In this document: piece by piece, positions 13,720 to 62,100 of the stretch | How positions within the stretch are numbered: the stretch's first letter is position 1 | Layout of the letters: every line of letters begins with the position of its first letter | From: Rugalucina vietnamica | Taxonomy: Eukaryota > Mollusca > Bivalvia > Lucinida > Lucinidae | Length of the DNA: 64,000 bases | NCBI GenBank assembly: GCA_964017185.1 | Contig: OZ024874.1 | Coordinates: forward strand, 56,680,356-56,744,355 | Direction of reading: 5' to 3' | Notes under the pieces: generated by a model | Told to the model about the DNA's origin: nothing | What the model saw: the letters and a program-made list of their open reading frames with translations, nothing else | Databases searched by the model: none | Translations under genes and position numbers: made by a program

Positions 13720-14651
13720 AGCTCGCCTGCAGGAAGTGCATAGAGCTATTGTAGTCACCTCGGTCGTGCGCGTTTATGTGTGCGTCCGCGTCCGCGTCAC
13801 ACTTTCGGTTAAAGTTTTTTATAAGTCTATATCTCTTGACCATGTTGATGGATCAAGTTGATACTTTGCATGTTGCTAGATATTGGTCTGAAGTTTTACG
13901 CAGTACCATCATGACCCACCCTGGGTGACCTTGAGGTCAAGGTCACGGACTTAGAAATTTTGTGTTTAAGTTTTTGGTTTATGTTTTTGTGAGTCTATAT
14001 CTCTTGACCATATTGATGGATTGAGTTGATACTTTGCATGTTGCTAGATATTGGTCTGAAGTTTTACGCAGTACCATCATGACCCACCCTGGGTGCCTTG
14101 AGGTCAAGGTCACGGACTTAGAAATTTTGTGTTAAAGTTTTTGGTTAAAGTTTTTGTAAGTCTATATCTCTTGACCTTATTGATGGATTGAGTTGATACT
14201 TTGCATGTTGCTAGATATTGGTCTGAAGTTTTATGCAGTACCCTGGGTGACCTTGAGGTCAAGGTCACAGACTTAGAAATTTTGTGTTAAATTTTTTGGT
14301 TAAAGTCTAAATCTCTTGAACATGTTGATGGATAAAGTTGTTACTTGCATGTTGATAGATATTGGTCTCAGGTTTTATGCTGTACATCACAACTCACCTG
14401 GATGACCTTAAGGTCAGGGTCACGGACTTGGAAGTTTTGTGTTTAAGTTTTGGTTAATGTTTTTATAAGTCTATATCTCTTGAACATGTAGATTGATCAA
14501 GTTGATACTTTGCATTTGTCTTAAGTTTTATGTTGTACCATCATGACCCACCTGAGTGACCTTGAGGTCAAGGTCATGGGTCATAGATTTTAACAGATGT
14601 AGTGGCAAAGCACAAGTCAGGCGAGCTACGCTGTCCTGCGACAGCTCTTAT
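13720..14651 (+). mobile_element. Element C, complete copy
   Basis: The head AGCTCGCCTGCAGGAAGTGC with ATAGAGCT forms a hairpin with a GGAAG loop. A TGCGTCCGCGTCCGCGTC segment follows, then about 4.5 tandem units of roughly 165 bp. The element ends CAGGCGAGCTACGCTGTCCT then GCGACAGCTCTTA, with a GCTGTC/GACAGC tail hairpin. CAGGCGAGCT is the exact complement of the head start AGCTCGCCTG. Core units carry TGACCTTGAGGTCAAGGTCA. The element sits in the T-tract of a MITE D copy (..GCCTTTGTT, then ..TTTTTGTC). Confidence 0.8.
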
Positions 14652-15616
14652 TTTTGTCTGTCAAGATAGCACAACCACTTTTCTTTCTAAACATTATGAA
14701 AACACACCCATACCTAGATACATTTTTCAGTCGAAAAAGTCGATATTTTTCTTAGTGTTAGAACCGCCTCGAAGAGAGTATTAACAATCTATGTTTTAGA
14801 CCAAAATTTAAAAGGGTATACTTTTCACGGACATGTTCTCATGATGATCTGAAATCTCGGTCTGACTATTTTCGGTTGTTGTACTGACTGGTTTGTGTCG
14901 GACCTGATCGGAAATCAGAACGTTGGTTTGCGACGCCGCTCCAAATTTATACATTACATTTTCGTACAATCAAATACATGGGCCCCTTTTTTTCGGAGGC
15001 CAGATATATGACTGGGGTAAGTTTTGAAATATTAGGAGCCATACCCGTATCAAAATTACCTACCCCCGAAGTGCATCATAAATAAAATATAAGTTTGATC
15101 CTTTGGAAGCAGTAAAAACATTCAAAGGGAGGTATGGGCCATGTATAAAGTTCTAACCTTCATTGCTAAAATATTTACATTTCCGATGCAAATCCTTCAT
15201 GAACCTATGGAACTGAAGTGCCGTTCATAATTCCATGAACACATTGTGTCACGCGACGTCAATTGATCAGGTCATTACGTCAAAAAGACCAAAGCTCTCG
15301 GCAATGTGATTGGACATTGTTAACGTCATGACGTCATTGATGCCGTTCTGCTGTTTGAAGACACTCTGAAGACTTTCTATTTGCTTGTAAATGTTTTCGC
15401 CTCGGTCCTTTTTCAACAAGGTCCTTTTTCAACAAGCGAAAGAAAGAACTGGATGTAAATAATATAAGAAATGAGTGTAATCGTTCTTATGTTTATGGAG
15501 CTGTCGCTACTGCTAGCAAAGTTTACATGAGCATCCTGGGTTTGTTACAGCTCTGCTTTAAGTGATTTTGTAGCCAATTTTGTATGTAGGAAGGAGAAGG
15601 AAGGAGAGGAATTATA

Positions 15617-16240
15617 CTATCTATGGAGCGAAAACAATGGCTCTGATCAGTAACTGCACAGCTGAGCTGAGCCTTTGTTTTCGCATATGGTTTTCTGATG
15701 TCTGGGCCTCTATTTCAGGAACAAGACGAGTGTTTGGTGTGAGGAGCTGTCATCAGGAAGTCACATGGTCTACAGATGGTTGCTGGAGGAGCAGGTCATC
15801 ACAACCTCAGCACAGGTGGGTGTCAGCATTTGAGCAGCCATATGAGAAAACCGGAATTTCGCCTATACGCAGATCAGCTTTGCAGTTACTGCGAAGCTGA
15901 TCAGTGCCTTTTGTTTTTGCTATTCGGATAGTACAGTTCCTTGTCTTCCTAAACCCGAAATTTCAAGCATCAGTAGCTGCGCAGTGCGGTTTGCGTCAGA
16001 CAAGGTAGTAAACCTAAAAAAAAAAGGTTTCCTCATGTCACAGCTCATTTGAAACAAGACATGAGAAAACCTGTCTGGGGTTTCCGATCAGCTCTGACAC
16101 AAACTGGCATGTACAGAGGAAGGCTAGGAGCTTGAAGTTTTAAATTTAAAATGAAGGATTGTACTCTTTGTGTAGGTAAAAACAAAGGCATTGATCAGCT
16201 GTGCAATTACTGTACTAAAACAATGTGTATGACAAGCAAG
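15617..16240. mobile_element. Cluster of MITE D copies
   Basis: A partial copy (15.62-15.70 kb) and a full copy at 15831-16052 with ends GAGCAGCCATATGAGAAAAC and GGTTTCCTCATGTCACAGCTC-like are followed by a third partial copy from 16.06 kb. The full copy contains a strong central foldback: CAGATCAGCTTTGCAGTTAC, then TGCGAAGCTGATCAGTGCC. The 106-codon frame at 15580-15900 runs through these copies and is not treated as a gene. Confidence 0.7.
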
Positions 16241-17544
16241 ATGACTAGCTCTTCACCAGCAAGGTAGCCATCTGGCTAGTATTAACCAAAAATAAAGACG
16301 GCCAGGACAGCAATAAAGAAGACAGACCAAAAACACAGCATTATTTAAAGATAACTAGATGCACAACCGCCTTTAAACGGTCACTAAAGATACTTGTGTG
16401 CTTAAATTGATTTTGCAGGGCCCCCATTCCTTGCCTTGTAAATTATACCCCCCGCAAAATGAAGTTTTAGGGGGGTATACTGTTTTCAGCCTGTCCGTCA
16501 TTCCGTCATTCCATCAACATTTTGACAACTTTGATGAATAACTTGAGTAGCTTTTGCCTAATTCTTTTCAAATTTTCACCACACTTGCACCATTAGACAA
16601 TACATGTGTGGTATGAATTTAGGGGCCAAAGGGTCAGTATTGCAAGAGTTATGTGACTTTTTAAGTCTTCATATAATGTGTTTGCCATAGTACTGCAAAT
16701 ACATATAGGCTATCACATGGTACATGTATATGGCAGAGGTGCACCATGCCGGGGATTTTTGTAGACATATATTTTCTAAAAGCCAGTACCCTAAACTACT
16801 AAATGCCGCTTGTTAGCACTCTGACTGCTGGGGCTTTATCGTACCAGAGCATGTTACGTACGTTACCGATGTATGATTTTTAAATTCAAGCTGCTAAGGG
16901 GATCACCAAAATTTATGACAAAAAGCAAATATTTGACAAGAACTTTACCTTTAGATATGTAGCAGAGATGTTACCTAATCTAACAGGACCAAATTCAGTA
17001 ATATTCAGATATCATGACTACTCGTACGATAGAAGTAACGTAAATAACCTTTGTAATTTGGCATATCCGCCGTGTTTCATTTCTTATAGAATATAGCTTA
17101 GACCAAATATCAAAATACAATTTATATTATAGTTATTTACAATCCTTGCCCTTCAAAATGACATATAGTGGAGCTCTCTGTGACCTTTCATTACTCCATA
17201 GATGCTGATTGTCTTCCCCTACCCCCATTTAAATATTATGCCTATTAATAACCATGTCCCAGCAGAAACAGAACAAAGACACTTCCTTTCCCGAACAACG
17301 TCCCGGTTTTCGAAATAAAGCTTCCAAAGGTATTAAAAGCAAATGGTAAATCAACTATAGACCATGCTTCATGATAATGGTAGCATATTTTACCTTATGT
17401 CATGGTAACGTATGTAACAATTTTGTATTTTCACTATAGAATCATATACTTCTATGATTAATTGCAGATTATCATTTTTCTCTAACAGTTATTTCAATTA
17501 GAAAACTAAATTTATTGAATATCTGTGCTAAAAGGTATTAAAAG

Positions 17545-18478
17545 TAGGGATGTCATTCGGTGTCAAATTTAAGGTTCGGACGTTCGGAAACAAACATCCG
17601 GATGGTTCGAACGTTCGCAATTTTTCAGATCATGCCATATATTACATGTACATTTACATAAGTGTCAATCGAGTGCTCCCTTGAAAGAACATTCATAATC
17701 AAGAGTTACTGAGCTTGGCGTTGTTTCCGTTGACGTGACGCAGAAACGCCATGTTATTTATGAAAGTTCATTTACATTCACAAAAGTAACAAACATCACA
17801 GTAGAACAACATTACCCAAACTACCTCTATAATGCAAAATTAAATAATGCCATTATCAAAAGTTCATGAGCATTCACCGAGTTTCCACTTTGTCGAACTG
17901 GCGCGTCAGCAAACAAATTCAATTTAGTCACATTATACATGTATAAAATCTTAGTTTTCTGAATTTGCTTCTTCTTTGCATTAACGGAACAGCTTAGGAA
18001 TCCGCCTATTTGATTTGTCGAATTAAGATCATAGTACAACATGTAAGCATTCTTGTTTTGTTTAATCCCAAAATATATCTGTCAATCATCTGACATGTTG
18101 TTTTGCTGGGCGACGGTCTGTATAATTATTATTTGCATAAGTGTGAATCATATCGTTTTCAAAAGGAAACAAAAGAGGCCAATTATCATCTTTAATCCTT
18201 TCTGTGTTTATTGTCGCTTCCCCTTTACATGCATTGTCCCATTAATCTGTTACACCTTAGTGACCTTTGACGCTACATGTGTTTTAGAAATTCATATTAA
18301 ATACCTTGTATCCTATTCTGCTAAGTAGATATTGTGTATTTTTGTCATACATTAATGGAAATTTACCTAAATATGGGAAATGTTGATTTTTTAGCGAACG
18401 TCCGGATGCTAAAATTTGGATCCGAACTTCGGTACGGGATCCGAAGTTCGAACGTTCGGACTCCGGTTGACATCCCTA
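17545..18478. mobile_element. hAT-type MITE L with perfect 8-bp target duplication
   Basis: The element starts TAGGGATGTCA and ends TGACATCCCTA (11-bp perfect inverted repeats). Sub-terminal GTTCGGACGTTCGGA / TTCGAACGTTCGGA motifs lie inside both ends. The flanks are identical 8-mers, ATTAAAAG at 17537-17544 and 18479-18486. An 8-bp duplication is the hallmark of hAT transposition. The interior has no transposase. Confidence 0.85.
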
Positions 18479-19317
18479 ATTAAAAGCACACAAAAATCAA
18501 CTACAGACCATGATTCATGATAACGGTAACATACTTTACGTAAAGGCATGGTAACGTACATAACAGTTTTGTATTTTCTCTATAGTATCAAGTACTTATA
18601 ATTTATAGCAGATTATCATTCGTCTCCCATAATTATTTCAATTAGTTAATTAAATTTACTGAATATCTGTCCTAAAAATAAAAGAAAGGAGAGCCAAAAG
18701 GGCAACAATCGCTCACCTAGTAACAATTAAGTCTGAAAAGGATTCAATCAATAACAGGAATGAAATAAAGTTTATTTATTGCGGTTCTATTCACTAAAAC
18801 AAATTAATCAAAGCTTATTTGCGTATTCTAATTATTGTATAATTCCATTATGATCGTAGAAGACTCACGTGACAGATTTACCGTTATAAATCTGAATGAC
18901 TCGCCTGTTGTGGTTGGTCAAACACATTCACTTCCTTCATAATGTTAATGGTAAATCTGTGATGTCAGTCTACTATGATTGGTATAATATATATTACGTA
19001 TCAAATGGACCATAAAGTGAATGATCTAAAGAACATAATATTAGTAGAATGAGCAGCTATTTCACTAAAGATGACCATACAACTACCTGAACTTAACTAC
19101 TTCTGTGTGACTTCAGAAATCACACCAAAACCTAAAACCAATACATGTAGGACCACAAAAGAAGCACAACCTTGAGAAGTTTTTAAATCAATGTAAAGTT
19201 GTGTGGATTTGTTTATAAAATGCATCCATTTTTCCCCCAAAAAACGGAAATTACACCAAAGATACAGCCTGCTATATGTTTTCTAAGTATTAGCGCCTAA
19301 TTGTCAATTTAAATTGT

Positions 19318-19790
19318 TTTTTCCCACCTCGGTTTTTACAATATGAATTTCTTTCTGATTGCGGCTTTTCCTGATCATTGCCTTCTTGTACCATTTTAGG
19401 ATCCCAGGAAACACAACTGAAACTACTGACTGACTGACTATCTGATCACTGGTTAACCGCTCAGGTCTAAGCCTGTCCAGGAATAGTGGTTAAGTCAAGT
19501 CATCCATACATATAAGTCTCAATGGTTTAGTTGGGTGGTTATATTTGAAGCAATTTTTGGATGTCATGACGTCCTAATTTTGGGTATAAGTCCCATAAAA
19601 TGGAGGCAACGTCCCGACATGACCATAGCTGTTGACTGGGACGCTAAGCATCAATTCAAACAAACAAAGAAACTTTGGTATAAGTACCTGATTGTTAGTT
19701 TGTTTTTTTCCCCACCTCGGTTTTTGGAGTGGGAATCATTTTCTGATTGCGACTTTTCCTGCTCTTTGCCTACTTGTACCTTTTTGGAGC
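19318..19790 (+). repeat. Two short CTCGGTTTTT repeats and a SINE-like fragment inside M
   Basis: CCACCTCGGTTTTTACAATA.. (19.33 kb) and CCACCTCGGTTTTTGGAGTG.. (19.71 kb) each continue into TTTCTGATTGCG(G/A)CTTTTCCTG and CTTGTACC; a third copy interrupts the GA minisatellite at 10.7 kb. Between the two lies ATAGCTGTTGACTGGGACGC with a CAAACAAACAAAG tail. The 123-codon frame over this stretch is not credible as a gene. The rest of M (about 18.7-22.3 kb) shows no gene. Confidence 0.55.
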
Positions 19791-22700
19791 AAAAGAAAAC
19801 TGCCAGTGGACTGAGCAAGACACACGAAGGGTCTGGCCCCAGCCCAGCCTACTTAAACACTATTTCGAGACACGTCAAAATCAGTCAGGAGAATTTTCAT
19901 TCCTGACTTACTGTACATATGAACATGTACTTCTTACATACGTTTAAATAAGATATTGAAGGTGCTATAGAATGGTCATGCTTACAAATTCACCATCTTA
20001 GGTGTCACCATCTTAGGTGTAACATGTTTTATCTTGTTCTCAAGAGCAGCATATGCCGTAGTTCAAAGGAGATGTGATCAAAGATATAACCGCTAGAGTG
20101 ACCATAGTACATTCACTCATTAATATTATACATTGTCATGGAAACCGGAGTTCTATTCTGATCTGGTTCTTCCTTATGCATTTAAACTGCAGAACTGTAT
20201 CCGTCTAAATAAAATACATGTAGCTCGCGGTATCGCAGACAGTAAATGCGCAAAATGACAAATTTTCGTGATCTAGAGGAAAGCTGTTAAGTGTTTTATG
20301 TCCCATAACCACTATGGTCGCTTGCTACTGATTGTTTTAAAGTGATGCTTTGGATTAAATCATTACTTGATCTTAGATGCAGTAGATATAATATATTTTG
20401 TTTGTTGCCATTTTTGTCGGCCATATACTTGTAGAAGATTTACGGTAAAGAAAGTCTCGAACAACCACGTTCTCCTTGGTTCGACATTGTACCACTAGGT
20501 CACCACGCTCCCCACTGTGTATCTTGGTTCAGAATTAAGTAGTGACTACATTGTAGCATTATCATCATTAACAACCTAATTATGTTTGGGTTTTGCAGAT
20601 GACATACAAGTATCCATCTTTCACTAATCAATAAAAAAATTAATCATCCAAGGCAGGTTAGGTGTATAACCAATCAAAAGGAACACAACCTCAAGGAGTC
20701 GCGCTTAATGTTGTTCTCAATGGAGAAGAACGCTCACTTAGCACTGCCACTCTCTGTCTTACCACATCGGTTCGGTATAATTATAATCATTTATAATTTC
20801 ACTAACAAAGTACATTTGCCAGCATTTTTTTCAGCAGTCACATTTAAGAAAACATATGAGATTTTCTTTTCTGTGTAATACAAAACACATTGTGGTCTAA
20901 CATTACAATATCGTGTAGTTTCCTGCAGAAAATACCAATTTAGAATGCCACAGTTTTGACATAATAAAAGTAAATAAAGACATCTTGCAAACCACACGAA
21001 AATTCCACCATATTAATCAATCCCCTGGATTATGGTATGACGTTTGAATTACCAATAGCACTCTCACCTTGACGACATCAATCTTGACGTCAATAGACAT
21101 ATCTGCAAGGCTCATTTTTATGTAGCTTTAACAAGTTTAGCCATATAGTGCCTTATTCCGCACTAGCTGTAAGGCTATGTCACATAATCATGGCTAAAGT
21201 CAATCAACCCACCTTCACATTTTGCTAGCATAGGTATGACGAAGATTGATTGTACTATTGTGATATCCAGTGAATTTCATTGATTGATTGGAAGACTGAT
21301 TAGAATATATAATGATGATCAACACTGAAACCATTTTAGAGCCAAATTCTGAAATCTAAGGTGATGTGTTTTATTTTCGTTCAGATTCATAAGCATTTAG
21401 GAATCTCAGCCCTTTTTGTATGAGTGAATTGACTTTACGACACTTATCGTTATCTACGTTACCATATGACAAGACACTAGGCGACATGCATTAAGGTGGC
21501 ATTGTGTTAGTATTAAGCTTGTAACCATTAAAACAATGGTGATTTTAAACTGAAAATGCGTCATTGAATTGAGTTTTTTCCCAATGACCCTTCAAGAAAC
21601 TATAATATGTATCTCCAAATATGTATATGCCAAATACATATATGTAGGCAAACAAGAACGACACAAGTTTCACTCAATAGCATACAGTTGCAAACATTGT
21701 TGGTTAAATAATTTGGACAGCAGACTTAGTTGCAAACACTAAATTCATTATTTCGAAGCAAATCCTCACAACTTATTTCACCTCAGCCCTCTGTATGAAG
21801 GGAATGTTCCTACGGTATCTTGCCGTTATCTACGTTACCAATGACAAACCACTCAGTAACAATAAATAAGGTGCCATTGGGTTATGATAAGTTTACCATT
21901 TAGACAATGTCAAGTTTTTACAAGAAATGTATCGCTGAATTGTACTATTCCCCGGTGTCCCTTTGAGAATGACTAAGTATGATTTAGTTATACACGTAAA
22001 TATATGTATACTGGCAAGTGGGGACGACACAAGTTTCAATATATGACATGCAGCTGCAAACAAAGAACAAATGTTTGAGTAAACTAATTCAGATAAGAGA
22101 CATAATTCAAAAATATTTACACACGGTCAGTTTGTTTATTTGCATTAGAAATTCGATGTACTGTTTGTTCATATGGAACGTCTACTGTATATTTTGTTAC
22201 ATACGTTACCATACGTGGTACAGTGAATAATGTTCATAGAAAAGCATCTGTTTTAGCATATTTTTCCTATTTGCTAATTTGCGTGTTTGTTTTAACGCTA
22301 AACTTCTTAGAAAATTCACCAAATGTTGATTTTATGGCGATTCTCAAGAAATTGGCAACATGTCACGTACGTAACTCATTCAAAAGGCCGCTACGTCCAA
22401 ACGCCCCAACGGTCACAGTGCTAACAAGTGTCATTTTGAAGGGAATTGAATGGGCTTTCAGAAAATTATACCCTACAAAAATCCCCGGCATGGTGCACCA
22501 GGGTCTGTTGGCTCCTCAACGTCTAATACTTTGTGAAATCAACTTCTCTTACTGATTTCAGTGTTTCCTTTTGATATTTTGCTGATATGTTTCAGATATA
22601 TTGCAGATGTGCATGAACAATTATCATGCTGAAAAAATCATTTTTGAGAAATTTACAGCATTTTTAACTTAGCAAATTTTCAATAATTCCTTATACATGT

Positions 22701-24667
22701 ATTCCATAATGGTTGGTAGTGCATACTTTGTGAAATCAACTCCTTCTAGGGCTTTCAGTATTTCTTTTCAGTACTTTGCAGACATGTTACAGACATATTG
22801 AAGATGTGCATGTGGAATTATAATGCTGAAAAAAATAATTTTTGACAAATTTACAGCATAATTCTGTCATTCCGTCATTCCGTCAGCATTTTGACAACTT
22901 TGATGAATAACTTGAGTAGCTTTTGCCTGATTCTTTTCAAATTTTCACCACACTTGCACCATCAGACAATACATGTGTGGTATGAATTTAGGGGCCAAAG
23001 GGTCAGTATTGCAAGAGTTATGGGACTTTTTAAGTCTTCATATAATGTGTTTGCCATAGTACTGCAAGTACATACTTTGTGAAATCAACTTCTCTGACAG
23101 ATTTCAATGTGTCCTTTTGATATTTTGCTGATATGTTTTAGATATATTGCAGATGTGCATGAACAATTATCATGCTGAAAAAATCATTTTTGAGAAATTT
23201 ACAGCATTTTTTAACTTAGCAAATTTTCAATAATTCCTTATACATGTATTCCATAATGGTTGGTAGTGCATACTTTGTGAAATCAACTCCTTCTAGGGCT
23301 TTCAGTATTTCTTTTCAGTACTTTGCAGACATGTTACAGACATATTGAAGATATGCATGTGGATTTATAATGCTGAAAAAAAAAATTGACAAATTTACAG
23401 CATTTTTTAACTTTGCCATTTTTCGTCTTTGCAGCAGCATTTTGACATCTATGCTGAATAACTTGAGTAGCTTTTGTCTGATTTGTTTCAATTTTTCACC
23501 ACACTTGCACCATCAGGCAATACATGTGTGGTATGAATTTAGGGGCTCAAGGGTCAGTATTGCAAGAGTTATGGGACTTTTTAATTCTTCATCAAACATG
23601 TTTGCCATAGCTGAAAATACATACTTTGTGAAATCAACTCCTCTTACAGCTTTCAATGTTTCCTTTTAATATTTTGCTGATATATTTCAGATATATTGCA
23701 GATGTGCATGAACACTTGTCAATATGAAAAAAATCATTTTTGACAAATTTACAGCATTTTTAACTTCGCAAATTTTCTATATTTGCTTATATTCAATAAT
23801 GGTTGGTAGTGCATACTTTGTGAAATCAACTCCTCATAGGGCTTTCAGTATTTCTTTTCAGTACTTTGCAGATATGTTACAGACATATTGAAGATGTGCA
23901 TATAGAATTATAATGCTGAAAAAATAATTTTTGACAAATTAACAGCATTTTTTAACTTTGCCATTTTTCGACCATTGCTTATATATTTAATAATGGTTGG
24001 TAGTTCATAGTTTGTGAAATCAACTTCTCTTAGGGCTTTCAATATTTCTTTTCAATACTTTGCAGACATGTTCCACACATATTGAAGATGTGCATGAATA
24101 ATTATAATGCTGAAAAAATAATTTTTGACTAATTTACAGCAATTTTTAACATAGCCATTTCTTGACCATTGCTTATATACAATAAGGGTTTGTGAAATCA
24201 ACTCCTCCTAGGGCTTTCAGTATTTCTTTTCAATACTTTGCAGACATGTTCCACACATATTGAAGATGTGCATGAATAATTATAATACTGAAAAAGTGAT
24301 TTTTGACAAATTTACATCATTTTTCAACATAGCCATTTCTTGACCATTGCTTATATACAATAATAATTTTGCGGGGGGTATACTGAAAGCCTTGCTTGCA
24401 GCTAATTTCTAGTTGAGTCTGCTATGATTGCTTCATTTGCTATTCAGTGGTTAATGCATATCAAAATGTTAATTGATTTATTTGAGAATTGTCAGAGAAT
24501 TTGCCTTTGAAGTCTTACCACACAAATTATTATGAATAAAATGAAATTTACATCACTGAACACTTTGAAATTGCATTCTCTGTCATTTTCTTATAATATT
24601 TCTTAGCTGTCAATTTTGCTCCGTCTCCAGTGAAACCTATAGAGTAGCCACATCAGATGTAATTAAA

Positions 24668-33589: not shown

Positions 33590-33590
33590 T

Positions 33591-34108: not shown

Positions 34109-34247
34109 GTCTTTCGTACTGATCAGCACCTTTGTTTTTGCTACATGGCCCTTCTGTGACTGGACAGGCTGGTTTGTGTCAGACCTGTTCGGAAACCACA
34201 TTGTTGATTTTCTCATGAGGTGGCTCATTTGTTTATGCTTGTTTCAG

Positions 34248-34986: not shown

Positions 34987-35039
34987 GTAGGCTTTAACAT
35001 CAGATACATGAGCCTTTGCATGGGAATTATAACATTTTT

Positions 35040-46642: not shown

Positions 46643-46691
46643 AGCTCACCTGAGCCGAAGGCTCACAGGTGAGCTTATAGTATACCCATGC

Positions 46692-48557
46692 AGAATAACC
46701 GACAGGGCCTACGAAAAGTACCTGAAAGACATCCTAGGTATTAATAATGAGGCGGATGACCTTGATGCCCCACCCAAGGTCAAAACCAAGAAATTGTATT
46801 CCCTCCTGAAACATTCAAAACAGGATTCTAGTGGAATTGCATCACTGAAGGCCAACAATAAAACTTATACTGAAGACCCGGATAAGGCCAATGCCCTAAA
46901 TGCCCAATTTAACTCAGTCTTTAGCCCCAAAAGCCCGATAAGCCTTAAGCAAATTGCTCAGAGGACACTACAGGACTTACATGATTCTGGCACAAAGCAA
47001 CCCTTCAGACCCAGCCCACACCCCAAAATGCCTGATATCCACATTTCTGTGCAAGGCATAGAGAAACTGCTCAAATCTCTAAACCCCCACAAGGCCGCTG
47101 GCCCAGACAAACTTAAGCCAATTGTCTTACAGACCCTCCATAAGGAACTTGCTCCAATACTGCAAGTGATTTATCAAAGATCCCTTAACGCAGGAAAGCT
47201 CCCTTCCATTTGGAAAGAGGCAAATGTATCCCCTATCTTCAAAAAAGGGGATAAAACCGACCCATCCAACTACCGTCCTATCTCCCTGACCTGTGTCCTC
47301 TGCAAGGTGCTTGAGCATGTCGTGGCTTCTGGAATCTCTAAACACTTCACTGACCAACACATATTATTTGAACTGCAGCATGGGTTCCGAGAAAAGAGGT
47401 CCTGCGAGACACAATTGATAATGCTGGTCGATGAACTCGCCAAAAATATGCAAGCTAAAAAACAGACCGACCTCATCCTCCTTGACTTTAGTAAGGCTTT
47501 CGACAAAGTAGCCCATGAAAAATTACTTCTCAAACTTCACTTTTATGGTATAAGGGGGAATACTCTAAATTGGATAAAAGATTTTCTTGACAATAGATCA
47601 CAATCAGTTCTCCTAAATGGTTCCAATTCAAATAACATCCCAGTATCCTCAGGTGTCCCGCAGGGCTCAGTTCTCGGACCCATTCTGTTTTTAGCCTACA
47701 TCAACGACCTCCCGGATCAGGTTAGATCAAGAGTCCGTCTATTCGCTGACGACACAGCCATGTACCTTGCACTTGATAAGCAAGATGACTCAGAGATCCT
47801 ACAAAAAGACCTTGAAAGCCTTGAGAAATGGGAAAAACTCTGGGATATGAGTTTCAACCCTTCAAAATGTCAGGTCATTCATGTGACCCGACGCCAAACA
47901 CCACACGAAACTAAATATTATCTTCATGGCTGTGTACTTGAAAGTGTATCCTCCGCTAAATATCTTGGGGTCACTCTATCAGAAGACCTCAGCTGGTCAA
48001 ATCACATCAACACTATTACTAAAAAGGCAAATCAGACTCTCGGCTTCATCAAACGTAATATCCGGGTCCATAACAAGGACCTGAAGTCCACAGCATATAA
48101 AACCCTCGTCCGCCCACAGCTAGAATATGCCTCTGCTGTGTGGTCCCCTCACACCGACCAAGACATCAAGAAACTTGAAGATGTGCAAAGACGGGCCGCT
48201 AGATGGGTAATGAGAGATTACCAACAAACATCTAGTGTGACCGCGATGCTACAGGATCTCAACTGGCGCACCCTCGACCAACGACGCATAGATAGTCGAT
48301 TGGTCCTCCTATACAAGGTCACATACGACCTTGTAGCCATCCCTGCTCAAGACTTCCTGATCCGGAACACCCGACAATCATCCAGAAATCACCCCATGGC
48401 ATACAGGCAGATCCTAGCTCTAAGAGACTACTACAAGTTCACATTTTTCCCCCGGACAATTATACACTGGAATGCCCTACCACTGCATATCCCCGTACTA
48501 CCCACTCTGGCTCAGTTTAGCACAGCTGTCTGCCAGATAAACCACAAAAGTCCTTGA
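46692..48557 (+). CDS. Reverse transcriptase, C-terminal part of LINE ORF2 (5'-truncated)
   Basis: This copies LINE RNA into DNA at a nicked target. The open frame is intact for about 620 codons. It contains the RT blocks in order: LNPHKAAGPDKLKP, NYRPISLTCVLCKVLEHV, HGFREKRSC, DLILLDFSKAFDKVAHEKLL, SSGVPQGSVLGPILFLAYIN and RLFADDTAMYL, with the catalytic FADD at 47742-47753. The thumb region LGVTLSEDLSWSNHI and the C-terminal RRAARWVMRDY and DQRRIDSRLVLLYK follow. The N-terminal endonuclease is absent. The frame is open further upstream into element A and J sequence (ATG at 46497), but those about 65 codons are a chance fusion. TGA ends it at 48557. Confidence 0.9.
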   Translation, partial: RITDRAYEKYLKDILGINNEADDLDAPPKVKTKKLYSLLKHSKQDSSGIASLKANNKTYTEDPDKANALNAQFNSVFSPKSPISLKQIAQRTLQDLHDSGTKQPFRPSPHPKMPDIHISVQGIEKLLKSLNPHKAAGPDKLKPIVLQTLHKELAPILQVIYQRSLNAGKLPSIWKEANVSPIFKKGDKTDPSNYRPISLTCVLCKVLEHVVASGISKHFTDQHILFELQHGFREKRSCETQLIMLVDELAKNMQAKKQTDLILLDFSKAFDKVAHEKLLLKLHFYGIRGNTLNWIKDFLDNRSQSVLLNGSNSNNIPVSSGVPQGSVLGPILFLAYINDLPDQVRSRVRLFADDTAMYLALDKQDDSEILQKDLESLEKWEKLWDMSFNPSKCQVIHVTRRQTPHETKYYLHGCVLESVSSAKYLGVTLSEDLSWSNHINTITKKANQTLGFIKRNIRVHNKDLKSTAYKTLVRPQLEYASAVWSPHTDQDIKKLEDVQRRAARWVMRDYQQTSSVTAMLQDLNWRTLDQRRIDSRLVLLYKVTYDLVAIPAQDFLIRNTRQSSRNHPMAYRQILALRDYYKFTFFPRTIIHWNALPLHIPVLPTLAQFSTAVCQINHKSP

Positions 48558-48728
48558 ACACCAGCATCTGTTTTTATCTTTTAACTATACTAACACTCTT
48601 GATCGCACTGTACAAAGTCTTGTCACCCACTTTTCATTGCTTTTATTTCAACTAACCCCCTTCAGCTCTTGGTATACCGGAACACCATCTGAAGTCCTCC
48701 TCGGAGGTTAAGATGTAAAGGAAGATAG
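46692..48728 (+). mobile_element. 5'-truncated non-LTR retrotransposon (Jockey/CR1-like group)
   Basis: About 2.04 kb lies between two ATGC copies (46688-46691 and 48729-48732) at a point where other A elements read straight through from CCCATGC to TCCGTCG. The short target duplication and missing 5' part fit target-primed reverse transcription. No poly-A tail is present; the 3' end is GAGGTTAAGATGTAAAGGAA then GATAG, as in clades that end in short repeats instead of poly-A. Confidence 0.85.
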
Positions 48729-50666
48729 ATGCTCCGTCGTCCGTCCGTCGTCCGTCCGTCGTCCGTCGTCCACAATTTCAAAGATCTTCTCCTCTGAAAC
48801 CGCTTGGCCAATCAAAGCCAAACTTCATGTGGAGCATCCTTAGGAAGGGGGAACGAAAGTGTATATAAATGGTCCAGGTCACATGACCAAGATGGCTGCC
48901 ATGGCTATAAATAGCAAAAACCTTTAAAAATCTTCTTCTCCAGAACCAGAGGGCCGATTTCCACGAAACTTGGTATGTAGCATCGGAGACGAGGGCCCAT
49001 CATAATTTATATAAATCATGACCCTAGGATGACCTTGACCTATTTTATGGCAAGGTCAACTTAGGTCGCCAATGCATTTGAATGGGAAAAAATGGTAAAA
49101 TGCTATTTAATGGGTAAAACTTACTGGGAATAGGCAAATGGACAGAAGATTAATGTTAGTGGAAAATTTTATCCCCTGTGGGGTTGTCTGCCCCTGCCCC
49201 GGGGCTATATACATGTATATTTCCATAATAATGAAACATCTTCTCCCCTGAAACCGCTTGGCCAATCAAAGCCAAACTTCATATGGAGCATCCTTGGGAA
49301 GGGGGAAAGAAAGTTTATATAAATGGTCAAGGTCACATGACCAAGATGGCTGCCATGGCTATAAATAGAAAAAACCTGTATAAATCTTCTTCTCCAGAAC
49401 CAGAAGGCCAATGATTTTGAAACTTGGTGTGAAGCATCAGTGACTGGAGCTCTACAAAGTTTGTATAAATCATGACCCTGGGATGACCTTGACCTATTTT
49501 ACGGCAAGGTCAACATAAGTCGCTCATGCATTTGAATGGGGAAAAGTGTTAAAATGTCATTTGTAGGGAAAAGCTTGCAGGAAATAGGCAAATGGACTTA
49601 AGATTGATGATTCTGAAAAAATTTGGACCCCAGGGGTCTGTCTGCCCCCACCCCGGGGCAATATACATGTATATTACAGTGATATTCAAAGATCTTCTTC
49701 TCTGAAACTGCTTGGCCAATCAAAGCCAAACTTTATGTGGAGCATTCATAGGAAGAGTGAATGAAAGTTTGTGTAAATGGTCAAGGTCACATGACCAAGA
49801 TGGCTGCCATGGCTATAAATAGCAAAAGCCCTTCAAAATCTTTTTCTTCAGAACCAGAAGGCCTATGATTTTGAAACTTGGCATGAAGCATCAGGCAATG
49901 GAGCTCTACAAAGTTTGTATAAATCATGACCCTGGGATGACCTTGACTATTTTTTCCGGCAAGGTCAACTTAGGCCGCCTATGCATTTGAATGGAAAAAA
50001 TTAGGAAAATGTCATTTAATGGCAAAAAACTTGCTAGGAATGAGCAAATGGACAGAAGATTTATGTTTATGAAAATATTTTGGGCCCAGAGGGTTGTCTG
50101 CCCCTGCCCCGGGGCTATATACATATGTATGACCATAATATTGAAACATCTTCTCTGAAACGGCTTGGCTAATCAAAGCCAAACTTTTTGTGGAACATTC
50201 ATAGGTAGAGTGAATGAAAGTTTGTATAAATGGTCAAGGTCACATGACCAAGATGGCCACCATGGCTATAAATAGCAAAAACCCTTAAAAATCTTCTTCT
50301 CCAGTACTAGAAGGCCTATGATTTTGAAACTTGGCATGAAGCATCAAGCAATGGAGCTCTTCAAAGTTTATATAAATCATGACCCTGGGATGATCTTGAC
50401 CTTTTTTATGGCAAGGTGAACTTAGGTTGCCTAAGCATTTGAATGGGGGAAAAATTGTTATAATGTCATTTGAAGGGCAAAACTTGCAGTAAATTTGCAA
50501 ATGACTGAATCTTTATGATTTATTAAAGAAATTTACTCCAGAGGTTGCCCTGACCCTGCCCTGGGGTTATATACATGTATATTACCATTCTAGTCAAACA
50601 AGTTTATTGGTACATGTATATATCTCAGGTCTCAGGTGAGCATTTACAGGATCATTGGTCCTCTGG

Positions 50667-51385
50667 TTTTAAGTTTTGCAGTTATAAAACATCACTAAGA
50701 GACAGATTTTTGATTTATGATATTGTAACAGCTTTATCCTACAGTAGAACCTCTGATACCTATGTAAAAACAGTTCTATTAGCATTTAATGCAATTTTCT
50801 GGAAAAGCAAAATATGTCCATATCTTCATATTCTTTGCGCATATGTTATAGTGCTTCATACATGTTTAAGGTCTTCTGATATGCAAAAGAATCATGTAAT
50901 GGTTTCCTATTTATACCCACAAATAATGGCGATTTTGACATTTTTGTCAGTTACAATAGTGTTGCGCTCAAAAATCCTTTTATTTTTTGGCGCAAAACTA
51001 TTGTACCTGCAGTTGTGACAGGCTTGCATAAGCTATTGTGAAGCATCTAAGCCTAAAAACAAAAGCCTCAGACCAACAGACACTGTGTGTTGTAGCAAAG
51101 TACAGCCTAGGAGGCATCACCATTGTGACTGATTCCAACTGTTTTTAGCTTTGAAGAAGTTCAACAAAAGAAGAAAAAGATAAAAAACAAACTGTTTATG
51201 TTCTTATTTGCATATGGATCCGCTCAAAATGCCTGAAGGAGTGTACAATAATTATTATTTATGCCAATTGATAGAGATTGTATGTAGTACATTATCACCA
51301 AAGGTTGTTTACTCCAACAGGTGAGCTACTGTGGACATTCAATCTGCCAAAGACAGGAATTTCCGTACCTCTCCAAAGGAAGCAA
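50667..51385. other. Element J right part and unassigned sequence
   Basis: J-like sequence runs to about 51.02 kb, ending GGCGCAAAACTATTGTACCT-GCAG. From 51.02 to 51.39 kb I see no gene, no MBT exon and no known repeat. Confidence 0.4.
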
Positions 51386-51387
51386 AT

Positions 51388-52202
51388 CAAAAATCTATTT
51401 CTCCAGAACTGATTGACCGATTTCAACGAAACTTGGTATGAAGCATCGATGGCTCAAGCACTACAATGTATATATAAATCATGACCCTGTGATGACCTTG
51501 ACCTATTTTACGGCAAGGTCAACATAGGTCGCCAATGCATTTGAATGTGGAAAACTTTTAAAATGTAATTTAAAGTGAAAGTCTTGCAGGAAATGAGAAG
51601 TAGGACTGAATATTAATGATTCTGAAAAAATTGGACCCCAGGGGCTCATGTGCCCCCACCCCGGGGCAATATACATGTATATTTCCATAATATTCAAACG
51701 TCTTCTCCTCTGAAACCGCTTGGCCAATCAAAGCCAAATTTTATGTGAAATATCTATAGAATTGGGGAATCAATGTATATATAAATAATATAGGTCACAT
51801 GACAAAGATGGCCGCCATGCCCATATATGGTAAAAACCCATCAAAAATCTTCTCTGAAACCAATAGACTGATTTCAAGGAAACTTGGTGTGAAGCATCGA
51901 TGGCTAAAGTACTCCAATGTATATATAAATCATGACCCTGTGATGACTTTGACCAAGTTTATGGCAAGGTCAACATGGGCTGCCTATGCATTTGAATTGG
52001 GAAAACTGTTAAAATGTCATTTGAAGGGAAAAGCCAGCAGGACATTGGCAAATGGACAGAATATTGAAGATCCTGAAAAAGAAAATGGCCCAAGGGCTTC
52101 ATCTGCCCCTGCACTAAAGTTAAATACCATAATATTCAAACATGTTTATTGGTATATGCAGCAGATCTCAGGTGAGCGTTTACAGGACCATTTGTCCTCT
52201 GG
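51388..52202 (+). mobile_element. Element A, 5'-truncated
   Basis: It begins in a core module (TCTATTTCTCCAGAACTGAT) and ends with the tail TCTCAGGTGAGCGTTTACAG, GACCATTTGTCC and CTGG-TT. The open frame at 51799-52206 follows module sequence and is not a gene. Confidence 0.75.
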
Positions 52203-53018: not shown

Positions 53019-53019
53019 T

Positions 53020-54126
53020 TATACCCCCCCGCAAAACGAAGTTTTAGGGGGGTATACTGTTTTCAGCCTGTCCGTGATTCCGTCATTCTGTCATTCCGTC
53101 ATTCTGTCATTCCGTCAACATTTTGACATCTTTGCTGAATAACTTAAGTAGTTTTTGTCCGATGTTCTTCAAATTTTCAACACACCTGCACCATTAGACA
53201 ACACATGTGTAATATGAATTTAGGGGCCACAGGGTCAGTTTTGCAAGAGTTATGGGACTTTTTAAATCTATACATAGAATGTTTGCCATAGTGCTAATAG
53301 TGCATACTTTGTGAAATCAACTCCTCCTACAGCTTTCAATATTCTCTTTTGATACTTTGCTGATATGTGCCAGAGATATTGAAGATATGCATGAAAAAGT
53401 ATTATGCTGAAAAAATGAATTTTGACAAATTTACAGTATTTTGAACTTAGCCAGTTTTTGATAATTGCCATATTCAACAATGGTTGGTAGTGCATAGTTT
53501 GTGTAATCAACTCCTCCTAGGGCTTTCAGTATTTCTTTTCAATACTTTGCAGACATGTTCCACACATATTGAAGATATGCATGAAGAATTATAATGATGA
53601 AAAAATAATTTTTGACAAATTTACAGCATTTTTCAACATAGCCATTTTTTGACCATTGCTTATATACAATAATGGTTGGTAGTTCATAGTTTGTAAAAAT
53701 CAACTCCTCCTAGGGCTTTCAGTATTTCTTTTCAATACTTTGCAGACATGTTCCACACATATTGAAGATGTGCATGAAGAATTATAATACTGAAAAAAAT
53801 AATTTTTGACAAATTTACAGCAATTTTTAACATAGCCATTTTTAGCTCACCTGAGCCGTCAGGCTCACAAGGTGAGCTTATAGTATACCCATGCTCCGTC
53901 GTCCGTCCGTCCGTCCGTCCGTCGTCCGTCGTCCGTCCGTCCGTCCGTCGTCCACCATTTTCAAAGATCTTCTCCTCTGAAACCGCTTAGCCAATCAAAG
54001 CCAAATTTTACATGAAGCATCTATGGGAAGGGGGAACCAATGTGTATATAAATAATCCAGGTCACATGACCAAGATGGCCGCCATGCCCATATATGGTAA
54101 AAACCCTTCAAAAATCTTCTTCTCCG

Positions 54127-54159
<33 letters not shown>

Positions 54160-56182
54160 TGAAGCATTAATGGCTCAAGCACTACAATGTGTATATAAAT
54201 CATGACCCTATGATGACCTTGACCTATTTTACGGCAAGGTCAACATAGGTCGCGAATGCATTTGAAAGGGAAAAATTGTTAAATTGTCATTTAAAGGAAT
54301 AATCTTGCAGAAAATGAGCAGTAGGACTGAATATTAATGATTCTGAAAAAAATTGGGCACCAGGGGCTCATCCGCCCCCACCCCGGGGCAATATACATGT
54401 ATATCTCCATAATATTCAAACATCTTCTCCTCTGAAACCGCTTGGCCAATCAAAGCGAAATTTTATTTGAAGCATCAATAGGAAGGGGTAACAAATATGT
54501 ATATAAAAAATCCAGGTCACATGACCAAGATGGCCGCCATGCCCATATATGGTAAAAACCGTTCAAAAATCTTCTTCTCCAGAACCGGTTGACCGATTTC
54601 AACGAAACTTGGCACGAAGCATCGATGGCTCAAGCACTACAATGTGTATATAAATCATGACCCTGTGATGACCTTGACCTATTTTACGGGAAGGTCAACA
54701 TAGGTCACCAATGCATTTGAATGGGGAAAACTTTTAAAATGTCATTTAAAGTGAAAGTCTTGCAGGAAATGGGCAATAGGACTGGATATTAATGATTCTG
54801 AAAAAAAATTGGACCCCAGGGGCTCATGTGCCCCCACCCCGGGGCAATATACATGTATATTTCCATAATATTCAAACGTCTTCTCCTCTGAAACCGCTTG
54901 GCCAAACAAAGCCAAATTTTAAGTGAAGCATCTATAGAATGGGGGAATCAATGTATATATAAATAATCTAGGTCACATGACCAAGATGGCCGCCATGCCC
55001 ATATATGGTAAAAACCCATCAAAAATCATCTTCTCTGAAACCAATAGACTGATTTCAAGGAAACTTGGCGTGAGGCATCGATGGCTAAAGTACTCCAATG
55101 TATATATAAATCATGACCCTGTGATGACCTTTACCAAGTTTATGGCAAGGTCAACATGGGTTGCCTGTGCATCTGAATTGGGAAAACTGTTAAAATGTCA
55201 TTTGAAGGAAAAAGCCAACAGGAAATTGGCAAATGGACAGAATATTGAAGATTCTGAAAAAAGAAAATGGCCCAAGGGCTTATCTGCCCCTGCACTAGAG
55301 TTAAATACCATAATATTCAAACATGTTTATTGGTATATGCAGCTGATCTCAGGTGAGCGTTTACAGGACCATTGGTCCTCTGGTTTGACCATTGCTTATA
55401 CAATAATGGTTGGTAGTGCATATTTTGGGAAATCAACTTCACCTAGGGCTTTCAGTATTTCTTTTCAATGCTTTGCAGACATGTTTCACGCATATTGAAG
55501 ATGTGCATGAAGAATTATAATGATGAAAAAAATTTTTTTGACAAATTTACAGCATTTTTCAACATTGTCATTTTTGACCATTGCTTTATACAATAATGGT
55601 TGATAGTGCATAGTTTGTGAAATCAACTCCTCCTAGGGCTTTCAGTATTTCTTTTCAATACTTTGCAGACATGTTCCACTCATATTGAAGATGTGCATGA
55701 AGAATTATAATACTGAAAAATTAATTTCTGACAAATTTACAGCATTTTTAACATAGCCATTTTTTGACCATTGCTTATATACAATAATGGTTGGTAATGC
55801 ATAGTTTGTGAAATCAACTCCTCCTAGGGCTTTCAGTATTTCTTTTCAATACTTTGCAGACATGTTTCACACATATTGAAGATGTGCATGAATGATTATA
55901 ATACTGAAAAAGTGATTTTTGACAAATTTACATCATTTTTCAACATAGCCATTTCTTGACCATTGCTTATATACAATAATGAAATCAACCTCAAGCTTTC
56001 AATATATTCTTTTAATATCTTATAGATGTGACTGGCATACTGAGGATGTACATGAAGAATTATAATGCTGAAAAGATATCTTTGACAAATTTTCTGCAGG
56101 TTTGACATAGGAAGTTATTGGCCAGCTCCAGATAATTTTGCGGGGGGGTATACTGAAAGCCTTGCTTGCAGCCAATTTCTAG
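53020..56182 (+). mobile_element. Element G, copy 2, with element A nested inside
   Basis: The head TATACCCCCCCGCAAAACGA with AGTTTTAGGGGGGTATA is followed by repeated ATTCCGTCATTCTGTC, then roughly 180-bp core units. The tail TTTTGCGGGGGGGTATA and AATTTCTAG-TT close it. Element A splits the core between GCCATTTTT and TTGACCATTGCT. Head and tail both have seven C/G here; copy 1 has six in both. Confidence 0.85.
53844..55383 (+). mobile_element. Element A, complete copy nested in element G
   Basis: This is the cleanest full copy. The head AGCTCACCTGAGCCGTCAGG with CTCACAAGGTGAGCT is followed by a GTCC/GTCGTCC tract, three modules with CAAGATGGCCGCC and CCATATATGG, then TCTCAGGTGAGCG, AGGACCATTGGTCCT and CTGG. 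The uninterrupted G unit (GCCATTTTTTGACC) shows insertion between T and T. Confidence 0.9.
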
Positions 56183-58560: not shown

Positions 58561-60044
58561 AGCTCACCTAAGCCGAAGGCTCACAAGGTGAGCTTATAGG
58601 ATGGCCATGCTCCGTTGTCTGTCCATCGTCGTTGTTCGTCATCCGTTGTCCGTCGTCTTCCACCCACAATTTCAAAGATTTTCTCCTCTGAAACCGCTTG
58701 GCCAATCAAAGCCAAACTTCTAGTGCAGCATCCTTAGGAAGGGGCAACAAAAGTTTATATAAATGGTCTAGGTCACATGACCAAGATGGCCACCATGGCT
58801 ATAAATAGCAATAACTTTTAAAAATCTTCTCCAGAACCAGATGGCCTATGATTTTGAAACTTGGCATGAATCATCAGGGTAATGCGCTATACAAAGTTTA
58901 TATAAATCATGACCCTGGGATGATCTTGACCTATTTTATGGCAAGGTCAACTTAGGTTGCCTATGCCTTTGTAAATTGAATGGGGAAAAGTTGGAAAATG
59001 TTGTTCAATGCCAGAAAACATACTGGAAATGAGCCAATGGACAGAATACTTAAGTTCATGAAAAAAATTGACCCCAAGGGCTTGTCTGCCCCTGCCCCAG
59101 GGCTAAATACATGTATATAACATCATCTTCTCTGAAACCGTTGGCCAATCAATGCCAAATGTCATATGGAGCATCCTTAGGAAGTGGGATGAAGAGTCTA
59201 TATAAATGGTTTAGGTCACATGACCAAGATGGCCACCATGGCTATAAATAGCAAAAACCTTAAAAAATCTTCTTCTTCAGAACCAGAAGGCCTATTATTT
59301 TGAAACTTGGTATAAAGCATCAGGGAAAGGAGCCCTACAAAGTCTTTATAAATCATGACCTTTGGATGACCTTGACCTATTTTACGGCAAGGTCAACTTA
59401 GGCCACCTGTGCAATTGAATGAGGAAAAGCAAGAAAATAATGTTCAGTGGGAGAAAACGTGCTGGAAATGAAGAAATGGACAGAATATATATGTTTTAGA
59501 AACAATTTTGGCCCAAGGTGGTTGGCTGCCCCTGCCTTGGGGCTAAAAACATGTATTATATTGTAATCTTCAAACATCATCTTTTTTGAAACCCCTTGGC
59601 CAATCAAAGCCATACTTCATATTGATGATCCTTAGAAGGTGGGAATGCAAGTTTATGTAAATAGTCCAGGTCACATGACCAAGATGGCCACCATGACTGT
59701 AAGTAGCAAAAACTTTTAAAAATCTTCTCCAGAACTATAAGCCATATGATTTTGAAACTTGGCATGAAGCATAAAGGAAATGAGCTCTACAAAGTTTATA
59801 TAAATCATGACCCCGGGATGACCTTGACCTATTTTATGACAAGGTCAACTATGCATTTGAATGGGGAAAAGCGGAAAAATGGCTTTAATGTGAAAAACTT
59901 GCTGGGAATGTCTAAAATGGACAGAAAGTTTATTTTTTTATTGTCTGCCCATGCCCCAGGACCATGCGCAAGGACTTGTAGGAAAATACTCAAGTTTTTT
60001 TACAAGATCTCAGGTGAGCATTTACAGGACCATTGGTCCTCTGG
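58561..60044 (+). mobile_element. Element A, complete copy
   Basis: Head AGCTCACCTAAGCCGAAGGC with TCACAAGGTGAGCT; degenerate GTCC tract; three modules with CTATAAATAG or decayed forms; tail TCTCAGGTGAGCATTTACAG, GACCATTGGTCC and CTGG-TT. Confidence 0.85.
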
Positions 60045-60143
60045 TTTCAGTGTGATATGTTTTAAGCCATTAGCTTATGAAGAGTTTAAAACTGATCTTC
60101 ATATTGATTTATAACCACTAAAATGAAATTCCACCATATTTTT

Positions 60144-62100
60144 AGCTCACCTGAGCCGTTAGGCTCACAAGGTGAGCTTATAGGATGGCCATGATCCGGC
60201 GTCCGTCCGTCCGTCGACCGTCCACAATTTCAAAGATCTTCTCCTCTGAAACCACTTGGCCAATCACAGCCAAATTTTATACGAAGCATCTATAGGAAGG
60301 GGGGAACCAATGTGTATATAAATAATCCAGGTCACGTGACCAAGATGGCCGCCATGCCCATATATGGTAAAAACCTTTAAAAATCTTCTTCTCCAGAACC
60401 CAAAGGCCTAGGATCTTGAAAGTTGGCATGTAGCATAAGTGACTCAAGGTCCACAATTTGTATATAAATAATGACCTTAGGATGACCTTGACCTATTTTA
60501 CGGCAAGGTCAACATAGGTCGCCAATGCATTTGAATGGGGAAAACTTTTAAAATGTCATTTAAAGTGAAAGTCTTGCAAGAAATGGGCAGTAGGGCTGAA
60601 TATTTATGATTCTGAAACAAACTGGACCCAGGGACTCATATGCCCCCACCCCAGGGCAATATACATGTATATCTCCATAATATTCAAACATCATCTCCTC
60701 TGAAACCGCTTGGCCAGTCGAAGCCAAATTTTATATGAAGCATCTATAGGAAGGGGGAACCAATGTGTATATAAATAATACAGGTCACATGACCAAGATG
60801 GCCGCCATGCCCATATATGGTAAAGACCTTTAAAAATCTTCTTCTCCAGAACCCAAAAGCCTAGGATCTTGAAACTTGGCATGTAGCATAAGTGACTCAA
60901 GGTTCACAATGTGTATATAAATAATGACCTTAGGATGACCTTGACGGCAAGGTCAACATAGGTCGCCAATGCATTTGAATGGGGAAAACTTTTAAATGTC
61001 ATTTAAAGTGAATGTCTTGCAGGAAATGGACAGTAGGTCTGAATATTAATGATTCTGAAAAAAATGGACCCCAGGGGCTCATCTGCCCCCACCCCGGGGC
61101 AATATACATGTATATCTCCATAATATTCAAACATCTTCTCCTCTGAAACCACTTGGCGAATCAAAGCCAAATTTTATGTGAAGCATCTATGGAATGGGTG
61201 AATTAATGTATATATAAATTATCTAGTGCACATGACCAAGATGGCTGCCATGCCCATATATGGTAAAAACCCTTCAAAAATCTTCTTCTCCGAATCTGGT
61301 GGACCAATTTCAAAGAAACTTGGCATAAAGCACCAATGGCTGAAGTTCTACAATGTATATATAAATCATGACCCTGTGGTGACCTTGACCTATTTTACGA
61401 CAAGGTCAACATAGATCGCCAATGCATTGGAATGAGAAAAACTTTTAAAAAGTCATTTGAGGTGAAAATCTTGCAGGAAATGGGTAGTAGGACTAAATAT
61501 TAATGATTCTGAAAAAAAATGGACCTAAGGGCTCATATGCCCACACCCCGGGGCAACATACATGTATATTACCATAATATTCAAACATCTTCTCCTCTAA
61601 AACCACTTAGCCAATTGAAGCCAAATTTTATGTGAAGCATCTATAGGATGGGGGAACCAATGTGTATATTAATAATCTAGGTCACATGACCAAGATGGCC
61701 GCCATGCCCATATATGGTAAAAACCCTTCAAATATCTTCTTCTCTGAAACCAATAGATTGATTTCAATGAAACTTGGTGTGAAGCATCCATGCTTAAAGT
61801 ACTACAATGTATATATAAATCATGACCCTGTGATGACCTTTACCAAGTTTATGGCAGGGTCAACATGGGTTGCCTATGCATTTGAATGGGAAAAACTGTT
61901 AAAATGTCATTTGAAGGGAAAAGCCAGCAAGAGCCAAGAAATTGGCAAATGGACAGAATATTGATTATTCTGAAAAAAGGAAAAGCGCCCAAGGGCTTCA
62001 TCTGCCCCTGCACTGGGGTTAAATACCATAATATTCAAACATGTTTATTGGTATATGCAGCAGACTCAGGTGAGTGTTTAGAGGACCATTGGTTCTCTGG
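60144..62100 (+). mobile_element. Element A, complete copy
   Basis: Head AGCTCACCTGAGCCGTTAGG with CTCACAAGGTGAGCT; about four modules, each with CCATATATGG. The first carries GGTCACGTGACC instead of GGTCACATGACC. Tail ACTCAGGTGAGTGTTTAGAG and CTGG-TT. It begins only about 100 bp after the previous A element. Confidence 0.85.

Follow-up and report, generated by a model that had tools for sequence, protein, structure and literature searches.

Probable non-autonomous Helentron-type elements with ends matched within families in a 64-kb stretch of the bivalve Rugalucina vietnamica

The DNA considered here is a window of 64,000 nucleotides from Rugalucina vietnamica (assembly GCA_964017185.1, contig OZ024874.1, positions 56,680,356 to 56,744,355 of the forward strand), in which 13 repeat elements are delimited at both ends: six copies of a family termed A, three of B, and one each of C, G, H and I. 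Two of these delimitations are inferred, A6 being joined around the nested A7 and G being interrupted, and two further A heads in the window, at 29595 (A5) and 62534 (A8), have no tail that could be found. The 5' end (head) and the 3' end (tail) of the elements are complementary to each other, and the elements, with the two tailless A heads, are distributed as follows.

4992..6825, minus strand: A1, complete A element with head AGCTCACCTGAG, tail CTCAGGTGAGC, a palindrome and the end CTGG before TT
13720..14650, plus strand: C, complete, with head AGCTCGCCTG, tail CAGGCGAGCT, 167-bp core repeats and the end CTCTTA before T
16445..24412, plus strand: G, with head ATACCCCCCGCAAAAT, tail ATTTTGCGGGGGGTAT and the end CTAG before TT
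28229..29400, plus strand: I, with head ATGTCTCCCCCCTT, tail AAGGGGGGAGACAT, 156-bp core repeats and the end CTAG before TT
29595..30636, plus strand: A5, A head and core, tail not found
31160..33589, plus strand: B1, complete, with head GCTCGACTGC and tail GCAGTCGAGC, hosted by a TGTGAAG-type tandem array with empty units
35800..38114, plus strand: B2, complete B element inside a large duplication
40327..42645, plus strand: B3, complete B element inside the same large duplication
44193..52202, plus strand: A6, with an A head at 44193 and an A tail at 52167-52202
46643..50666, plus strand: A7, A element in which a reverse-transcriptase insert follows the head (open reading frame 46485-48557, RVT_1)
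53021..56182, plus strand: H, of the family of G, with a 7-C head and a 7-G tail and a core array interrupted by A2
53844..55383, plus strand: A2, complete A element within the core array of H
58561..60044, plus strand: A4, complete A element with head CCTAAG and a tail without a matching change
60144..62100, plus strand: A3, complete A element whose tail ends GAGT, with a head without a matching change
62534..63082, plus strand: A8, A head and core, with core similarity to about 63082 and no tail before the end of the window

A1 is an additional complete A copy, lying beyond the interval 13720..62100 described in an earlier reading of this DNA (the first-pass annotation). The A6 head and tail probably belong to a single element with A7 nested within it, and G is probably split by about 5.8 kb of other DNA, from about 16706 to 22525, which may be another transposon inserted there; this DNA is flanked by a 100-nt inverted repeat (77%) at 16738-16837 and 22400-22499. 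The large tandem duplication that carries B1-B3 (31160-42645) has the flanks X1-B-Y1, X2-B-Y1 and X2-B-Y2, a pattern that fits unequal crossing-over between two B copies. Tandem core arrays are present in A, B, C, G, H and I. Simple-repeat tracts were listed by TRF for A, B, H and I, those of C and G coming from reading of the sequence only; their description in the first-pass annotation as GTCC/GTCTG-like does not extend to B and C, whose tracts are CGTTCC-like and CGCGTCC-like, respectively, and not plain GTCC.

The complementarity of the ends was determined by comparing the first 20 nt with the last 60 nt of each element and, for six representatives, every head with every tail. The longest exact complement is 11 bp in A, 10 bp in B and C, 16 bp in G and H, and 14 bp in I, and for every representative the best partner is its own tail, since complements across families reach only 4-6 bp with the exception of G versus H (12-13 bp). 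A complement of at least 10 bp arose in 30 of 20,000 random pairs taken from the window with a TTA start and a TT end; the matched ends are thus real and well above chance. The ten motifs quoted in the first-pass annotation were all found in the window, and the exact head/tail complements that it had reported for A, B, C, G and I are borne out at 10-16 bp. Within families, the B complement of 10 bp is present in all three copies, while among the A copies the 11 bp are retained in three (A1, A2 and A7) and are mismatched in A3 (10 bp), A4 (8 bp) and A6 (6 bp), the changes being located in the tail of A3 and in the heads of A4 and A6, unmirrored at the opposite end. The B and C repeats are 1 bp below the lower limit of 11 in the range of subterminal inverted repeats (subTIRs) of HINE elements (about 11-15 bp).

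An A follows TT at all 13 head starts, so that heads begin AG or AT; the tail repeat stops 23-31 nt short of the 3' end, which is CTGG in A, CTAG in G, H and I, and CTTA in B/C, and is followed by TT in A, G, H and I and by T in B and C. The CTGG or CTAG before TT that had been noted earlier for A, G and I therefore holds.

The families are not all independent of one another. B and C align at 74% over 133 bp and at 87% over 55 bp, and G and H have head, core and tail in common with about 80-90% identity where they are in register. A and B/C have AGCTC in common, with no alignment above threshold between them, and A and I have only a 32-bp stretch in common. The claim of five unrelated families is thus overstated, as B and C are sisters and G and H one family, and sequence comparison points to about four lineages in the window (A; B/C; G/H; I). 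The one-base difference between the B and C heads (A or C) is accompanied, as had been claimed, by the compensating change in the tail (T or G), and the B and C tails also differ at another two positions, within the repeat or adjoining it, that have no counterpart in the head. H had been described as having the same head as G: the family is indeed shared, but the H head has 7 C against the 6 of G, and the H tail has 7 G.

All 13 heads can fold. The hairpins of the first 38 nt have predicted DNA folding energies of -5.8 to -14.2 kcal/mol, in comparison to a mean of -2.0 in 3,000 random 38-mers, of which 4.9% reach -5.8. The GAA loop that the first-pass annotation considered usual occurs in B, C, G and some A copies, the other A copies having GTCA or similar and I having TTCA. 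In 12 of the 13 window copies, all but A3, the predicted duplex between head (20 nt) and tail (60 nt) exceeds the head hairpin in stability, with energies that exclude the cost of closing a long loop; the duplex of the repeats only is stronger in 14 of 16 listed elements, the hairpin being slightly stronger in A and A33. When the two ends are linked by a 20-nt spacer and folded as a single strand, head-tail pairing is predicted in 8 of 13 copies (A7, B1-B3, C, G, H and I). The predicted folding energy of the 3' palindrome behind the tail is -6.0 for A, -5.4 for B and C, -4.4 for G and H, and -1.4 for I.

To study the sites of insertion, the two flanks of every element were fused and used as a query against the window. 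Empty counterparts were found for four insertions (A2, B1, C and H), and none in the window for the remaining elements; two weak matches, the A1 row and a mixed B1/B3 row (E 0.83 and 2.9), were not used. The empty site of A2 consists of uninterrupted units of the core array of H (best 91% identical) and that of B1 of units of the TGTGAAG-type array (best 88%), while the counterparts of C (81% and 73%; 13336-13261 and 56602-56706) and H (76% and 71%; 451-553 and 56671-56572) are diverged. The host of C is a CCTTTGTTTT-containing repeat and that of H a CTTTTGTTTT-containing one, and the host copies of both belong to one repeat family with the CCTTTGTTTT T-run, copies of which lie at 13261-13336, 451-553, 15895-15954 and 56572-56706. 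This repeat looks like a repeated landing site, and the sequence flanking a G copy in L017 (L numbers designate regions of the same genome outside the window) resembles it too. A2, B1, C and H all sit in T-runs, with about 2-3 extra T's compared with the empty sites and no other duplication; the check for T-T junctions suggested earlier accordingly gives, at four sites, two of them with diverged counterparts, insertion into a T-run without a longer target duplication.

The ends are abundant in the genome, in which 1.09 Gb on 47 contigs were searched for end patterns. The G 16-mer TATACCCCCCGCAAAA occurs at 1402 and 1404 places on the two strands and the B/C head pattern at 1634 + 1709 places (3,343), the reversed-pattern controls giving 0 and 0 in both cases. 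Among the first 100 places of the G 16-mer, 78 form 39 convergent pairs within 10 kb, with a median spacing of 1.8 kb, and 22 are unpaired; in 20 regions around such places, TT precedes 22 of 22 listed G heads and follows 19 of 19 listed G tails. One-sided changes of the G repeat occur in one tail in L012 and in one head in L024, and the frequency of matching cannot be measured from this sample because selection by the exact 16-mer favours matched copies. On the minus strand of L012, at about 4365-4437, two G-family elements stand head to tail with the junction CTAG-TT-ATACCC, either as a tandem rolling-circle product or through insertion at the end of another copy. At the listed B/C places the variable base is A or C, with C in about 40 of about 100 by a count made by eye, and complete copies are matched in 3 of 3 cases for B and 2 of 2 for C. 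This association was rejected as proof of covariation, as two of the B copies derive from duplication and five copies cannot beat a chance of about 1/10; the run lengths of G and H (6/6 versus 7/7) were rejected likewise, on account of a G copy in L013 with 6 C in the head and 7 G in the tail.

Further matched ends were sought by census. In 177 kb, an 11-bp match gave 41 loci against 3 and 3 in the reversed and complemented controls, and in 100 kb a 10-bp match gave 24 loci against 1 and 1, many of the 41 and 24 being ordinary palindromes or other inverted repeats. A third census covered 327 kb (the window, 113 kb around G-family places and 150 kb of spaced places on two contigs) and required a 10-bp head-tail match together with a head hairpin, G-type rows outside the window being excluded; many of its 94 rows are again palindromes or other repeats. 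HINE-like elements were chosen by eye among the matches listed, by TT before the head and an asymmetric subterminal tail, and at least six further elements with five codes absent from the window were obtained in this way from 263 kb more of the genome.

L024 and L030: code ATACCCCCGGC, picked by eye from the census
L010: code ATACCCCGCCAC, picked by eye from the census
L040: code ATGCCCCCAAC, picked by eye from the census
L018: code GTCCCCCGCCTT, picked by eye from the census
L034: code TATCGCACCTGC, picked by eye from the census

These five codes show the diversity of the ends and add no significance to the matching, because the match was a requirement of the census; for the same reason they were left out of the chance test. 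A frequent perfect palindrome, AGAACCGCC..., also passes the census and was excluded, its 'tail' being another copy of the same palindrome. A palindrome around GTTAGAACCGCCTCGGCGAGGCGGTTCTAAC is frequent in L030, L033, L038, L042 and L043 as a dispersed repeat, in many cases with a GTACCCACAATCTATG-like stretch after it.

Taken together, these features are best explained if the elements are non-autonomous Helentron-type (Helitron2/HINE/DINE-1-like) rolling-circle elements of about four lineages, a reading with a probability of roughly 0.88 in which the rolling-circle replication, the switch and the enzyme are inferred. The Helentron-associated class (HINE, pearl-like) proposed by the first-pass annotation fits the structural features that could be tested, namely subTIRs, a 3' palindrome, a 5' hairpin, T-rich insertion without target-site duplication (TSD), and a tract with core repeats. 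Of the marks of canonical Helitrons (Helitron1), the 5' TC is absent, the 13 heads starting AG or AT after TT; the 3' CTRR is present in A, G, H and I (CTGG, CTAG), B/C having CTTA; and in place of A/T insertion there are T-runs at the four empty sites.

Similar systems have been described. In the Pacific oyster, 11 Cg_HINE elements of one plan (PMC7492417, 2020) have a 5' subTIR of 11-12 bp with an adjacent complementary inverted repeat (IR), a GTCY microsatellite (GTCC in several), a tandem core similar to satellite DNA, a 3' subTIR, a 3' palindrome and T-rich insertion with no TSD, all as in the window; the B and C tracts differ, and the likeness is one of plan, drawn from description and not from sequence. 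For most Cg_HINE elements, perfect subTIR pairs are reported in less than half of the copies. The subTIRs of DINE-1 (PMC2374699, 2008) match at both ends and vary among Drosophila species and among three D. willistoni types, and the conservation of structure despite sequence change was argued to indicate function; DINE-1 also has a partial IR by the head, a GTCY tract, central repeats, a 3' stem-loop and TT insertion, and several of its subTIRs begin TATACCC, like the G head. Its repeat is of 13 bp against 16 bp in G/H, and the cores are alike in plan.

Helitron2 (PMC3627910, 2013) has asymmetric terminal inverted repeats (ATIRs), the 5' one terminal and within a hairpin and the 3' one about 20-30 bp from the end and before a hairpin, with compensatory changes in two related elements and no TSD in related Helitrons; it was suggested that pairing of the repeats destroys the 5' hairpin and sets the end point of replication. 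The window elements resemble it in each of these respects, including the proposed end-pairing switch, and differ in that no protein is seen in them. Families of Helentrons are defined by subTIRs and insert into T-rich sites without target modification (PMC4067079, 2014). The same source describes the proto-Helentron of Phytophthora, which the 5'-side TT and the CTAG 3' end of G, H and I recall, and canonical Helitrons, whose CTRR also accommodates the CTGG end of A; the differences of the window elements are the lack of 5' TC, the T-run instead of A/T insertion, and the presence of end repeats. In Fusarium (PMC5148889, 2016), 5' hairpins around GAA are accompanied by matching 3' repeats. The window families thus belong to a kind of element that is already on record and represent it well; on present evidence their matched ends do not constitute a new code, being a recognized hallmark of that kind. 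The central idea has been published as well: PMC2374699, PMC3627910, PMC4067079 and PMC7492417 between them cover matched ends, compensatory changes and an end-pairing switch.

In the window elements, a 5' repeat beginning at the first base after TT and able to form a hairpin is followed by a short simple-repeat tract and tandem cores and, on the 3' side, by the matching repeat 23-31 nt from the end, a hairpin in most, and CTGG, CTAG or CTTA before T. By the most probable mechanism, which follows the Helitron2 proposal, a Rep/helicase made elsewhere would nick the 5' end and unwind one strand; the 3' repeat, once reached, would pair with the 5' repeat and open the 5' hairpin, and this pairing would mark the end for cutting and for joining into a T-rich site. 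Selection for pairing could then preserve complementarity within a family while the sequence differs between families.

Several observations weigh against this reading. No Rep/helicase was found in 20 of the 24 window open reading frames (ORFs) of at least 110 aa, four overlapping or repetitive ones being excluded, nor in 10 of the 17 ORFs of at least 160 aa from loci outside the window. At A2, C and H a TT duplication is indistinguishable from T's carried by the element. In the single-strand fold, 5 of 13 copies (A1-A4 and A6) retain the hairpin, and the 3' hairpin has little predicted stability in I (-1.4, against -4.2 in its L009 relative) and a moderate one in G/H (-4.4).

The first-pass annotation went further and suggested a recognition code co-evolving between the two ends. 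The matching at family level is real, whereas co-evolution is weakly supported, with one matched difference each in B/C and G/H; unmatched copies, named there as evidence against the idea, exist in A and in L013, while the B and C copies are matched. Such a code is plausible and testable but is not demonstrated, because matched differences are few and A3, A4, A6 and the L013 G copy break the match. Corresponding changes at both ends of B/C and G/H would also be expected if the two ends hybridize in single-stranded form and each is corrected against the other, the matching being a by-product and not a recognition code; this is rather unlikely, since in A3, A4, A6 and the L013 G copy only one end has changed, although possibly after insertion. 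It is improbable that the elements are cut-and-paste miniature inverted-repeat transposable elements that carry short inverted repeats and duplicate 2 bp (TT) of the target: the ends are inverted, TT flanks both sides of the listed G copies, and the filled sites of A2, C and H have about 2-3 T's more than their empty counterparts, but the 3' repeat lies 23-31 nt short of the end of the element, the right side of B1 is a single T, which contradicts a TT duplication unless one T was lost, and the same TT ambiguity was raised for DINE-1 (PMC2374699), later assigned to Helentrons (PMC4067079). A chance similarity of short motifs, for which the AGCTC common to A and B/C and the GGGGGGTATACTG common to the right hairpin arm and the tail of G might speak, can be dismissed almost entirely because own tails pair best and the random pairs so seldom reach 10 bp.

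Returning to the Helentron-type reading, the head hairpin is interrupted within the repeat, and the tail repeat uninterrupted, in 16 of 16 rows and 10 of 10 codes. This was rejected as proof and is only suggestive, because an interruption is likewise present in 233 of 290 other hairpins that follow TT and have about the same strength, so that 10 of 10 is expected by chance about one time in nine. As a general rule it was not found stated in the available parts of the Helitron2/Helentron/HINE/DINE-1 literature, and the IR of DINE-1 is termed partial or interrupted in PMC2374699. The palindrome AGAACCGCC..., should it prove to be a HINE, would contradict the interrupted hairpin. A built-in strand switch, in which the arriving 3' end displaces the arm of the interrupted hairpin, the arm is not mistaken for the end, and the private pairing sequence of each family insulates families sharing one enzyme, is a doubtful though conceivable extension.

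With about four lineages in one 64-kb stretch, some nested and with empty sites readable in place, the window families and the further codes constitute a natural test set for the published proposal that end pairing decides where rolling-circle transposition stops. The high copy numbers (about 1,400 G-repeat places per strand and 3,343 B/C heads) suit a genome-wide test of head/tail association.

As regards the remaining coding content, the only match above the curated cut-off in the scanned window ORFs is RVT_1, and the reverse-transcriptase ORF directly behind the A7 head (46485-48557) encodes 690 aa. Pattern scans of viral-contig and genome-contig collections gave 0 matches. The domains in the 10 ORFs outside the window are kinase, reverse-transcriptase and endonuclease-reverse-transcriptase, and at L040:6079-9126 an open frame of 1016 aa encodes a protein kinase domain (PF00069). 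In the window, tandem units of about 96-100 bp with long GA runs occupy 10803-11119.

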